Below, piece after piece: positions 10,643-14,626 of a stretch of DNA of 33,300 nucleotides. The stretch's first letter is position 1. The number at the start of each line of letters is the position of its first letter. A model generated the notes under the pieces. That model did no database searches. It worked only from the letters and a program-made list of their open reading frames with translations, and had not been told where the DNA came from. Position numbers and translations under genes: made by a program. Source of the stretch: an uncultured bacterium (GTDB lineage Bacteria; Verrucomicrobiota; Kiritimatiellia; RFP12; UBA1067); the NCBI GenBank assembly GCA_902779865.1, contig CACZDG010000051.1:1-33300 (forward strand), given 5' to 3'.

Positions 10643-11220
10643 GGATCGCCGGAGGCGAATGGCGTGGGCGCATCCTGAAGACGCCGGAAGGCGACGCGGT
10701 GCGTCCCACGCAGGACCGCGTCCGCGAGGCGTTCTTCTCGATGCTACTCAACGAGATCCCTGGCGCACGCTTCCTCGACCTCTTCGCGGGTTCAGGCGGC
10801 GTGGGCCTTGAGGCTCTCTCGCGTGGCGCGGCGGAATGCATGTTCGTGGAACTTGCGCCGCGCCATCTTGCAATCCTGCGCGGCAACGTATCCGCGCTTG
10901 CCGCCGAATCGCGCTGCACGCTCGTGCGCGCCGACGCCTTTGCATGGCTTGACGTCTTCGCCGGCGCGCCTTTCGACATAGCCTTCGCGGACCCTCCGTA
11001 CGAACTTGGGGCAGAGAAGGGTTATGCCGGAATGCTGGAGGCGATGGCGGCACGCGACGTGGTGCGTCAAGGTGGACTGTTCATCGCCGAGATGAAAAGC
11101 CGTCATGAGCCCGAAGAGTCGCCTGCATGGGAACTTTGCCGAGACCGCACTTACGGGCAGACCCGCATAGCAGTTTACCGGCGAAAGATTTTTCATTTTC
11201 CCCCTTGCGCAGAGGCTTGA
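10639..11220 (+). CDS. rsmD: 16S rRNA (guanine(966)-N(2))-methyltransferase
   Basis: A 193-residue class I SAM-dependent methyltransferase that modifies G966 of 16S rRNA in the assembling small subunit. It opens with the family-typical [13 protein letters not shown] ... [18 protein letters not shown]-binding motif I is [20 protein letters not shown] (about 45-64), and catalytic motif IV is the N-methyltransferase DPPY (118-121, in FADPPY). Length matches the RsmD family (about 185-200). The start at 10639 overlaps the rpoC stop as ATGA, with no separate promoter seen, so expression is probably coupled to RNA polymerase synthesis. The last codons run into the -35 region of the next promoter (11205-11210). 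Confidence 0.9.
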
Positions 11221-11234
11221 AAAAATGATATACT
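11205..11234 (+). promoter_or_regulatory. promoter of the candidate structured RNA
   Basis: TTGCGC (11205-11210), an 18-nt spacer, then TATACT (11229-11234) with TGA directly before it (extended -10, TGATATACT). The region resembles the rpoB promoter closely (T-rich block, CCCCCTTG, GATATACT). It lies inside the 3' end of rsmD. Predicted transcription start is near 11241. The nearest gene start, secA at 11560, has its own -10 after a terminator, so this promoter appears to serve the intervening RNA. Confidence 0.6.
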
Positions 11235-11240
11235 TGCGCT

Positions 11241-11510
11241 TGGAAATTCAAGGAGAGCTGTCGGGAAAACCGGCGGTTCTTTGGAAGCCGAACAGGAAGC
11301 GAAGCCTTTTCGAGGCGTTAGCGGCTGGCCAGCGTAATCAACGAATTACGGCTCATCTGCTGACGGACGAGGGTCCGGCCGAGGCGCGGAAGGAAGGTGG
11401 AACGACCGATCGGTGTGTTTTCGGTATGCGGCAACGCATGCCATCCGCCGCAAGGCGGCCGGACCGGATTCGGGCGTTGAAAGACGCGCGGATCCGGTTT
11501 TGGTTTTCTT
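11241..11510 (+). ncRNA. candidate structured non-coding RNA, family unassigned
   Basis: About 265 nt lie between a sigma70-type promoter and an intrinsic terminator, and the stretch folds densely. Helices seen by eye: 11258-11264 with 11270-11276 (7 bp including G.U pairs); GCCT/AGGC (11304-11307/11313-11316); CGTAAT/ATTACG (11333-11338/11345-11350) over CAACGA; a perfect 9-bp long-range helix GGTCCGGCC/GGCCGGACC (11372-11380/11457-11465) that encloses an 8-bp stem (11423-11430/11435-11442) capped by GCAA and a CCGCC/GGCGG stem (11445-11449/11454-11458) also capped by GCAA. Two helices share bases, so alternatives may compete. A third GNRA loop (GAAA, 11479-11482) caps the terminator stem. 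No convincing ORF spans it. I do not see the hallmark motifs of RNase P RNA, tmRNA, 6S or SRP RNA. An unusual cis leader for secA is the alternative. Confidence 0.6.
11464..11510 (+). terminator. intrinsic terminator of the candidate RNA
   Basis: CCGGAT (11464-11469) pairs with ATCCGG (11492-11497). Inside, GCGTT (11474-11478) pairs with GACGC (11483-11487) over a GAAA tetraloop. The stem is followed directly by TTTTGGTTTTCTT (11498-11510). It lies 50 nt before the secA start and would separate the RNA transcript from secA. Confidence 0.6.
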
Positions 11511-11541
11511 GCAATAATTTTTCCCCATTTCCGCAAGGATT

Positions 11542-11550
11542 TGATATACT
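11542..11550 (+). promoter_or_regulatory. extended -10 element of secA, near-leaderless
   Basis: TGATATACT (11542-11550) is identical to the extended -10 strings at rpoB and the candidate RNA. No good -35 hexamer lies 16-18 nt upstream (the position reads TCCCCA-like). Transcription would begin around 11556-11558, only 2-4 nt before the secA ATG at 11560, implying a leaderless or almost leaderless mRNA. An AAGGA at 11535-11539 lies upstream of that start and would not be in the transcript. Confidence 0.5.
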
Positions 11551-11559
11551 TTATTCCCC

Positions 11560-14500
11560 ATGAACATTTTAAAGATGATTTTCGGCACCAAGAACGAGCG
11601 CGACCTCAAGAAGATCGCGCCAGTCGTGGCGCAGATAAAAAAGATTGAAGAGGAATACGAGGCGCAGCACTTCACGGCGGAGGACTACCCGAAGAAGACT
11701 GCGGAGTTCAAGGAACGTTTTGCCAAGGGCGAGACGCTCGACCAGCTGCTGCCCGAGGCGTTCGCGCTTGTGAAGAACGCCTGCCGCCGGCTCGTCGGCA
11801 CGACCGAGGAGGTGTGCGGCCACACGCTCACGTGGGACATGGTCCCGTTCGACTGCCAGCTCGTGGGCGGCATCGTGCTGCACCAGGGCAAGATCGCCGA
11901 GATGCAGACGGGCGAGGGCCACGGTGAACGACTACCTCGCCCTGCGCGACGCCACGTGGATGGGCCATCTCCTCAAGTTCCTTGGGCTCACCGTTGGCTG
12001 CATCCAGAACTCCATGGACTCCGACGAGCGCCGCGCGCAGTACCAGTGCGACGTCACTTACGGCACGAACAGCGAGTTCGGCTTCGACTATCTGCGCGAC
12101 AACGGCATGGCGCAGGTGCCAGAGCAGGTTGTGCAGAACGGGCACAACTTCGCCATCGTTGACGAAGTTGACTCGATCCTCATCGACGAGGCGCGTACGC
12201 CGCTCATCATCTCCGGCCCCGCGACAATTTCCACGAGCGCGCAATATACCGCGATGAAGCCGCTCGTCGAATCCATCGTGCGCATACAGATGTCGCAGTG
12301 CAACGACCTCATCGCGCAGGCGAAGAAGGCGCTTGCGGACGGCGACGAGTGGGGATGCAAGAAGCGCATCTATCAGGTGTACCACTCGATGCCGAAGCAC
12401 AAGCAGATGCTCCACATGTTCGAGGAGGCGTCCATCCGCAAGCTCCACGAAGACGTGGAGATGCAGATGCTCAGCGAGATGCACAAGGAAGAGGGCATAG
12501 CGCTCCGTGGTGAGCTCTACTTCACTATCGACGAGCGCACGCGCGAGGTGGCGCTCACGGACAATGGCTGCGATAAGATGAACCCGAAGGATCCGCAGAT
12601 GTTCGTGATCCCGGATCTCGCGAGCGAGATGAGCCGGCTCGACGGCGACAAGGAGATGTCCGCCGAGGAGAAGGCCGAGAAGAAGCGTCTCGCGCAGGCG
12701 GACTTCATGGAGCGCTCCGCGCGCGTTCACGTTGTGGACCAGCTCCTGCGCGCCTACTGCCTCTACGAGAAGGACGTCGATTACGTCGTGCAGCCGGACG
12801 CGCAGGGCGTGGGCCACGTTTACATCGTTGACGAGTTCACGGGCCGCATCCTTCCTGGACGCCGCTGGTCGGACGGCCTCCACCAGGCCGTCGAGGCCAA
12901 GGAGGGCGTTGAGATCGAGCGCGAGAGCCAGACGCTTGCAACGATCACGATCCAGAACTACTTCCGTCTCTACAAGAAGCTTGCCGGCATGACCGGTACC
13001 GCCGAGACGGAGGCGCGCGAGTTCAAGGACATCTACAAGCTCGACGTGGTGGCGATTCCCACCAACCGCCCGATTCGCCGAATCGATGGCAACGACCAGA
13101 TATACCGCACACAGCGCGAGAAGTACAAGGCCATCATCGAGGAAGTGCGCAAGCGCCACGAGGCGGGCCAGCCCGTGTTGCTCGGCACGGTGACGGTCGA
13201 TACGTCAGAAGTCCTCTCGCGTCTCCTCAAGGTTGCGAAGATTCCGCACGAGGTGCTGAACGCGAAGAACCACGCGCGCGAAGCGGAGATCGTTATGCTC
13301 GCCGGCCAGCCCGGCGCGGTGACGATCGCCACGAACATGGCGGGCCGTGGTACGGACATCAAGCTCGGCCCGGGCGTCGTGACGATTCCGCAGGAAGTGG
13401 TGAAGAGCCAGCTGAAGCTCGACGACAAGATGCCCGGTTCGCCGAAGACGATCCGCGATCTCCTCGAAGAGCGTCCGCAGGGACTCCACGTAATCGGGTC
13501 CGAACGCCACGAGTCGCGGCGCATCGACCGCCAGCTGCGCGGACGCTGCTCGCGTCAGGGCGACCCCGGCAGCTCGCAGTTCTACATCTCGCTCGAAGAC
13601 CAGCTCATGCGTCTCTTCGGCTCGCAGCGCATCAGCGGCATCATGCAGCGCCTTGGAATGAAGGAAGGCGAGGTGATGGAGCACCGCTGGCTGAACAAGA
13701 GCGTTGAGACCGCGCAGCGGCGCGTGGAGCAGCAGCACTACGCGATCCGCAAGCGCACGCTCGAGTTCGACGACGTGATGAACAAGCAGCGCACGATCGT
13801 GTATGACCTGCGCGGCTCGATCCTCTCCGGGACGCCGGAGGACGTTCACGGTACGATCCTCGACGTGATGAACGACCTCGTGCTTGCGCAGTGCGAGCGC
13901 TTCCTGTGCGAGGCGAAGGACGCGCAGGTGGGCGACTTCCTCCAGTGGCTCGGCGTCACGTTCCCCGTGACGGCCACGGAAGAGGAGCTCACGCCTCTCC
14001 TCGGCACTCCCGAAAAATCCGCCGAACTCGTGTTCGGCCGCGTGAAGGAGGCATACGAGGCGAAGTGCGCGAGCGAGGATCCGCGCGTGCTTCCGTCCAT
14101 GGAGCGCGGCGTGTTCCTTCAGTGCATCGACCGCGAGTGGCAGGACTACCTGCGCGCGATGGACGACTTGCGCCACAGCGTGAACCTCCGTTCCTACGGA
14201 CAGCGCGACCCTCTCGTCGAGTACAAGCGCGAGGCGTTCAACATGTTCGAGAACCTCATGGTCACGATCAAGACGTCCGTGGCGAACACCGAGTTCCGTG
14301 CGACCACGGCGCAGAACGTGCGTAGGATGATGTACGCTGCGCAGCAGGTGCGCACGAACAGAGGGGACTTCGGCGGCGGTGCACCGCAGGAGGTGCCCGG
14401 CGTTGAGCGCTCGCAGGGCGCACCGGCCGAGAAGCCGAAGAGCACGCAGGACGTCTTTGCGTCCATGATGAGCCAGGTTGCCGGGCGTCCGGTGCGCGCG

Positions 14501-14626
14501 ATGCCCGTCCGCCCGCCGCTTCCCGGCGCACCGGCTGCCGGGGCGCCCGTAGTGGGCCGCAACGACCCGTGCCCGTGCGGCAGCGGAAAAAAATACAAAA
14601 AATGCTGCGGGAGGGGTCAGTTCTGA
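11560..14626 (+). CDS. secA: preprotein translocase ATPase SecA, frame broken by an internal ~65-nt deletion
   Basis: SecA is the motor ATPase that drives preproteins through SecYEG. The N-terminal part is read 11560-11919 (120 codons, ending IAEMQTGEG). The rest is read in the next frame, 11921-14626 (901 codons, starting TVNDYLALRDATWMG). In SecA these are joined by about 22 residues beginning with the Walker A KT, so roughly 65 nt appear to be missing. Restoring 65 nt would restore both frame and length (about 1043 residues). Elsewhere the gene is normal: DEAD-type VDEVDSILIDEARTP, GMTGTAETE, GRGTDIKLG, motif VI QLRGRCSRQGDPG, and a C-terminal zinc SEC-C motif (CPCGSGKKYKKCC, near 14568-14610). 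An insert in the preprotein cross-linking domain lengthens it over E. coli SecA (901). Either an assembly error or a true lesion; as read, no ATP-binding site is encoded. Confidence 0.9.

Follow-up and report, generated by a model that had tools for sequence, protein, structure and literature searches.

A lineage-restricted candidate family of independently transcribed structured RNAs in uncultured Kiritimatiellae

The 33,300-nt stretch of DNA analysed here (hereafter the window) contains a stand-alone gene at positions 11204-11510, composed of a sigma70-like promoter, a structured RNA of about 265 nt and a terminator. On balance we regard it as a member of a new, lineage-restricted family of independently transcribed structured ncRNAs, present as one gene per genome, probably acting in trans and most likely binding protein. 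Comparison among homologues establishes the predicted gene unit, the main helices, the conservation and the independence from neighbouring genes, and the locus thus combines its own promoter and terminator with a covarying structure, no conserved open reading frame and changing surroundings. The RNA family is well supported by these sequence comparisons, while its mechanism is something that we infer. So far it has been found in four genera only, all within one family of uncultured Kiritimatiellae; as a new RNA family with a conserved core at its junction, it lends itself to testing.

The boundaries of the gene (Table 1) were read from homologues, since a consensus scan of 11000-11700 called neither a promoter on either strand nor a terminator on the plus strand. 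The CTTGC of the -35 element, which falls within the last part of the rsmD coding sequence (its stop is at 11220), is invariant in the 15 genus loci and is present in all 13 homologues examined (13 of the 20 known). The extended -10 that a preliminary description had read from the window (TGATATACT) is indeed kept, as TG-N-TAnnnT, in 12 of the same 13 homologues, the exception being L126. About 6-7 nt further downstream follows the box GGAAATTC or a similar sequence, or TGAATTC, with a shorter spacing in L126. The proposed intrinsic terminator likewise stands, as a hairpin followed by the U-rich tail TTTTGGTTTTCTT, and its stem covaries, with 7 of 11 pairs changed on both sides in the genus alignment. 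The length of the RNA within the family ranges from about 240 to 277 nt.

Table 1. Features of the predicted RNA gene, in window coordinates. A1 and A4 are alignments described in the text; pair counts are for pairs changed on both sides, and those from A4, which was fitted to a model, lean towards the structure.
Feature	Position	Strand	Sequence or structure	Evidence
Promoter	11204..11234	+	-35 CTTGCGC 11204-11210; extended -10 TGATATACT 11226-11234	Comparison of homologues
Structured ncRNA gene	11242..11510	+	Predicted transcript, predicted ends	Homologues in genus and other genera
Conserved 5' box	11242..11249	+	GGAAATTC	AATTC in 13/13 homologues examined
5' hairpin	11247..11286	+	UUC/GAA-closed, 13 pairs	A1 helix 1: 5 pairs
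Core closing helix Ha	11287..11414	+	GCCG 11287-11290 with CGGT 11411-11414	A4: 2/4 pairs
Helix Hb	11304..11398	+	GCCTTT 11304-11309 with GAAGGT 11393-11398	A4: 6/6 pairs; 92.2% cells paired
Possible pseudoknot	11317..11364	+	GTTAGC 11317-11322 with Hf loop GCTGAC 11359-11364	A4: 1/6 pairs, three related loci
Helix Hd	11323..11380	+	GGCTGGCC 11323-11330 with GGTCCGGCC 11372-11380; one bulged base; three-way-junction stem	A4: 4/8 pairs; 99.3% cells paired
Hairpin He	11333..11350	+	CGTAAT/ATTACG (L055: CGATTA/TAATCG)	A4: 4/6 pairs; invariant within genus
Hairpin Hf	11352..11371	+	CTCATCT/GGACGAG; loop is 3' side of possible pseudoknot	A4: 0 pairs
3' hairpin 1	11423..11442	+	GCAA loop	A1 helix 8: 2/8 pairs
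3' hairpin 2	11446..11457	+	GCAA loop (UUCG in L009)	A1 helix 9: stem invariant in A1, no covariation
Intrinsic terminator	11462..11510	+	Hairpin stem 11462-11499; U-rich tail TTTTGGTTTTCTT 11498-11510	A1 helix 10

Homologues are common among the closest relatives and become sparse with taxonomic distance. Searches with blastn returned a single copy in the source genome (E <= 0.001) and homologues in 14 of the 16 other genomes of the genus (E <= 1.2e-17), and the model R1 recovered one copy each in 15 of the 17 genus genomes, own included; the two others, G001 (91% complete) and G006 (74%), gave no match by blastn or models. Additional models, together with a scan for a degenerate pattern, added five homologues from three more genera of the family (genomes G026, G023, G144, G146 and G147). 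At E <= 0.05 the model R3 matches 22 of the order's 162 genomes, or 20 once two matches judged false are removed, and in most genera of the family it finds nothing among the top-scored candidates of each genome. The two rejected matches, L053 in G116 and L054 in G120, are traversed by long open frames, and upstream of them CTTGC is missing over 150 nt and AATTC over 60 nt. Because these model searches scored only the top 20, or 83, first-look candidates of each genome, out of several hundred to several thousand, absence from other genera is weak evidence and the true spread may be wider.

The degenerate pattern, applied to a named contig collection, matched 70 loci. Model R2 scores 17 of them at E <= 1e-9, and the remaining 53 were taken to be chance matches. 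It does not match L126 and therefore misses homologues. Those of the 17 loci that were compared lie on contigs already matched in the G-numbered genomes, and they were counted as no extra genomes. The 17 are labelled as Kiritimatiellae (6), Lentisphaerae (2), Verrucomicrobia (2) and uncultured bacterium (7), and several come from ruminant gut samples; the relatives of the source organism were also sequenced from animal guts.

The preliminary description had proposed a dense array of helices, and the free-energy fold of 11236-11513 agrees with this, being far more stable than shuffled sequences (-133.5 kcal/mol, z = -5.24, 0/200 shuffles as good). All three of the GNRA-capped stems it listed are present in the letters of the window, with loops GCAA at 11431-11434, GCAA at 11450-11453 and GAAA at 11479-11482, and these loops are not strictly conserved, the second one being UUCG in L009. 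As for its long-range helix of 9 bp, the exact helix was not identified, and the comparative structure contains an 8-bp helix with a bulge (Hd), which reaches 9 bp if C11322-G11381 is counted.

Covariation among relatives, the check that the preliminary description had called for, bears out the fold. A sequence-only MAFFT alignment of 14 loci, 13 of them distinct (A1), was given a structure by RNAalifold from A1 itself; A1, like the flank comparison below, excludes L010, a genus homologue that lacks part of the 3' region, and the alignment A2 excludes L004, L010 and L015. In A1, 22 of the 74 pairs are changed on both sides and 98.6% of cells are paired, as against 41-47% with the partner slid; the covariation score of 0.361 compares with 0.243 +/- 0.009 in shuffles, none of 500 being as high, and for one of five measures (further pair types) the observed value was reached by 3 of 500 shuffles. 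These compensatory changes fall in the 5' hairpin, Hb, Hd, 3' hairpin 1 and the terminator stem, and there is no both-side variation within A1 in He, Hf or 3' hairpin 2. A core alignment of 20 loci, 17 of them distinct (A4), was fitted to the model, so that its counts lean towards the structure, and gives 17 of 35 pairs changed on both sides with a score of 0.430 (0.224 +/- 0.016 in shuffles). The distant homologues rebuild He and part of Hd with different bases, and hairpin Hf was not predicted by a free refold of A4. Taken together, the compensatory changes support the predicted fold.

Within the core, the GUUAGC strand of the junction stem could pair with the GCUGAC loop of Hf to form a pseudoknot. 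In three g14 homologues (L055, L087 and L100) the two strands read GUUGAC and GUUAAC, which amounts to one compensatory change; since this change is single and common to three related loci, the pseudoknot is possible and not proven. In L126 the outer pair of the pseudoknot is disrupted, and the changes in L126 and L052 favour an alternative nested pairing of GUU 11317-11319 with GGC 11383-11385. Both pairings may coexist, with GUU nested and AGC engaged in the pseudoknot.

We suggest the following course for the RNA. Transcription would start near the conserved GGAAAUUC box from the sigma70-like promoter and end at the hairpin-U terminator, and the transcript would fold into the 5' hairpin, a core of long-range stems around a three-way junction, and the 3' hairpins, with the bulge in the junction stem perhaps pairing with the loop of one arm. 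It would probably act in trans, because its neighbours change between genomes and the downstream genes are sometimes convergent, and would most likely bind protein, either as the scaffold of an RNP or as a regulator, with the highly conserved junction (GUUAGC strand, GCUGAC loop and GAGGC strand) as the putative binding or active site. A different kind of trans action is possible, if unlikely: the RNA could be an antisense sRNA, in which the fold would be a stabilising scaffold and an exposed strand, such as the 5' box or the run of U that follows the core, would pair with mRNAs. The autonomous promoter and terminator, the conserved 5' box and the TTTTTT found after the core in several homologues would all suit such a role; the best conserved bases, however, lie inside the structured junction, which is unexpected for a simple antisense RNA, and the six-T run is absent from L126 and is TTTT in the window.

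The protein-binding reading can be carried one step further, to the speculative and rather improbable proposal that this RNA forms the core of an RNP not yet recognised and perhaps serves the lineage as a stand-in for a canonical RNA such as SRP RNA, with the conserved junction and the pseudoknot as its functional centre. Canonical SRP RNA (RF00169) was detected in 0 of the 17 genus genomes and in 0 of 60 sampled genomes of the order, with 56 candidates scored per order genome, and RF01854 exceeded its cut-off in 0 of the 17 genus genomes, where two weak matches (E 0.25 and 0.48) were obtained. A pattern for the SRP core motif gave 7 matches in 5 of the 17 genus genomes; the four loci that were read all fall within long open frames (in L035 a frame of 99 codons at a contig end), and one further match is letter-identical to three of the four. 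The order-wide controls, however, also missed the SRP RNAs of B. subtilis and Bacteroides ihuae, so the apparent gap may be a sensitivity limit of the search. Should the gap prove real, this RNA would also be a sign that an essential RNP has been rewired.

That the RNA is itself a very diverged SRP RNA, or another essential RNP RNA, replacing the canonical form in this lineage, appears improbable. Its size, single copy and own gene are compatible with such a replacement, as is the lack of a canonical SRP RNA among the genomes just listed. Yet inspection by eye, against the consensus, revealed no helix-8 S-domain signature, and the RNA occurs in only 20 of the 162 genomes of the order whereas the SRP gap spans all 60 sampled; the imperfect controls and the 56 candidates per genome further allow that this gap is a limit of the tool. 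The preliminary description had likewise found no match to SRP RNA, in agreement with the absence of RF00169 and RF01854 matches at the gathering score in the window and to E = 5 in 11000-11700.

The surroundings of the gene favour the stand-alone, trans-acting reading over any function tied to rsmD or secA. By nucleotide blastn over up to 640-700 nt, in which diverged orthologous neighbours would count as different, the upstream flanks of 14 genus loci form 12 groups without mutual alignment and the downstream flanks form 5. Neighbouring frames were picked crudely, some of them antisense, and only neighbours backed by Pfam were used; on this basis L121 (epimerase), L126 (RNA methyltransferase) and L100 (cupin) each carry a convergent gene downstream. 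Neither rsmD nor secA was seen adjoining the RNA in the genus relatives, tblastn (E <= 10, up to 1.5 kb on each side) giving weak matches only, with a lowest E of 0.003. In the five loci L002-L006, blastn aligns the sequence that follows the terminator, although upstream they divide into four groups; what lies on the right may be an older neighbour. Given these varied upstream flanks, and a convergent downstream neighbour in no fewer than three of the distant homologues, the locus is best described as an autonomous gene and not as a leader of rsmD or secA. The independent transcription unit envisaged in the preliminary description thus gains support from the conserved promoter, the covarying terminator stem and the changing neighbours, all of them predicted features. 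That the RNA acts in cis, as leader or riboswitch of the gene that follows it (here secA), is accordingly very improbable. It is true that this gene shares the strand of the RNA in the window and in several relatives and comes after a terminator, but the five downstream groups and the convergent genes do not fit control of one adjacent gene.

As a separate observation, secA itself (11560-14626) is broken in the window. The frame 11560-12162 matches positions 2-103 of the SecA_DEAD profile and the frame 11924-14626 resumes at position 126 in another frame, so that about 22 profile positions are missing together with the frame change; presumably the missing stretch lies around the Walker A region. 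The break is a genuine lesion or else an artefact of assembly.

An RNA that titrates a protein in the manner of CsrB or RsmZ is as doubtful as a cis-acting leader. The window RNA does hold 12 GGA against 8.3 expected (sd 2.1), but just two of 17 sequences (L008 and L052) lie more than 2 sd above expectation, L126 has 2 GGA against 4.2 expected, and ANGGA is absent from 5 of the 17.

One claim of the preliminary description did not strictly hold, namely that the stretch is free of open reading frames, given that a 112-aa ATG frame (11225-11563) covers it. Its ATG overlaps the -10 element, the corresponding frame contains stops in 12 of the 13 other A1 sequences, L007 alone keeping it open, and of 91 indels relative to the window 89 are not multiples of three; by these comparisons the frame looks spurious and the RNA locus is not coding. 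Least probable of all is that the locus has no function as RNA and is a mobile or repeat-like DNA element, its location differing between species, or a short coding gene represented by the frame that spans the RNA in the window, against which stand the single copy per genome, the covariation in A1 and A4, the interrupted frame and the absence of matches in phage and plasmid collections and of the degenerate pattern in viral contigs (0 matches).

Comparison with known RNAs sustains the earlier suggestion of a novel or highly diverged ncRNA, in that no Rfam family accounts for it and relatives keep the RNA with compensatory changes. The Rfam search that had been proposed as a check found no known family: the covariance models of Rfam 15 gave 0 matches at the gathering score in the window, and a permissive search of 11000-11700 (to E = 5) gave two weak, chance-like matches only (E 3.2 and 4.9). 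In the loci L052, L055 and L126, the sole match touching the RNA was a weak Thr_leader in L126, on the opposite strand near the 3' end (26 bits against 55). Searches of the open PMC literature brought up no description of this RNA and no paper with a title on ncRNAs of Kiritimatiellae.

The RNA was also said to match none of RNase P, tmRNA and 6S RNA, which is borne out by the location of the matches to these families at other loci in the genus, with no match of RF00010, RF00023 or RF00013 at the RNA locus. 6S RNA is single copy, like this RNA, and independently transcribed, as is predicted here; its shape is a long hairpin with a central bubble, unlike the structure found here, and RF00013 matches lie elsewhere in 16 of the 17 genus genomes (over the cut-off in 7), including the source genome at G000:C25:18172-18325. 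RNase P RNA has long-range helices, and in this it resembles our RNA, which nevertheless has no Rfam match and is distinct from the RF00010 match found at a separate locus in 14 of the 17 genomes. No RNase P RNA match was obtained in G000 (the source genome), G013 or G015, perhaps owing to assembly gaps. tmRNA shares the several stems and the own gene, but a separate full-length gene (RF00023) is found over the cut-off elsewhere in 10 of the 17 genomes (in the source genome at G000:C41:3168-3521), and ARAGORN found no tmRNA in the window.

About 1.1 kb from the RNA homologue in L052, positions 110-164 give a sub-threshold match to Acido-Lenti-1 (26 bits, gathering score 37, E = 0.013), which is tabulated for Acidobacteria and Lentisphaerae and classed there as an RNA that is not cis-regulatory (RF01687; PMC2864571). 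The GOLLD, ROOL and OLE RNAs are highly structured bacterial RNAs, as is the RNA described here, and ROOL is named for the rumen; in PMC12286853 they are described as large, against about 265 nt and no Rfam match in our case. In standing the RNA resembles the orphan structured families that comparative genomics has brought to light, such as the 104 motifs of the 2010 Genome Biol survey (PMC2864571), candidate structured RNAs without an assigned function; the present RNA, which reaches no Rfam cut-off, is a structured candidate of the same kind.
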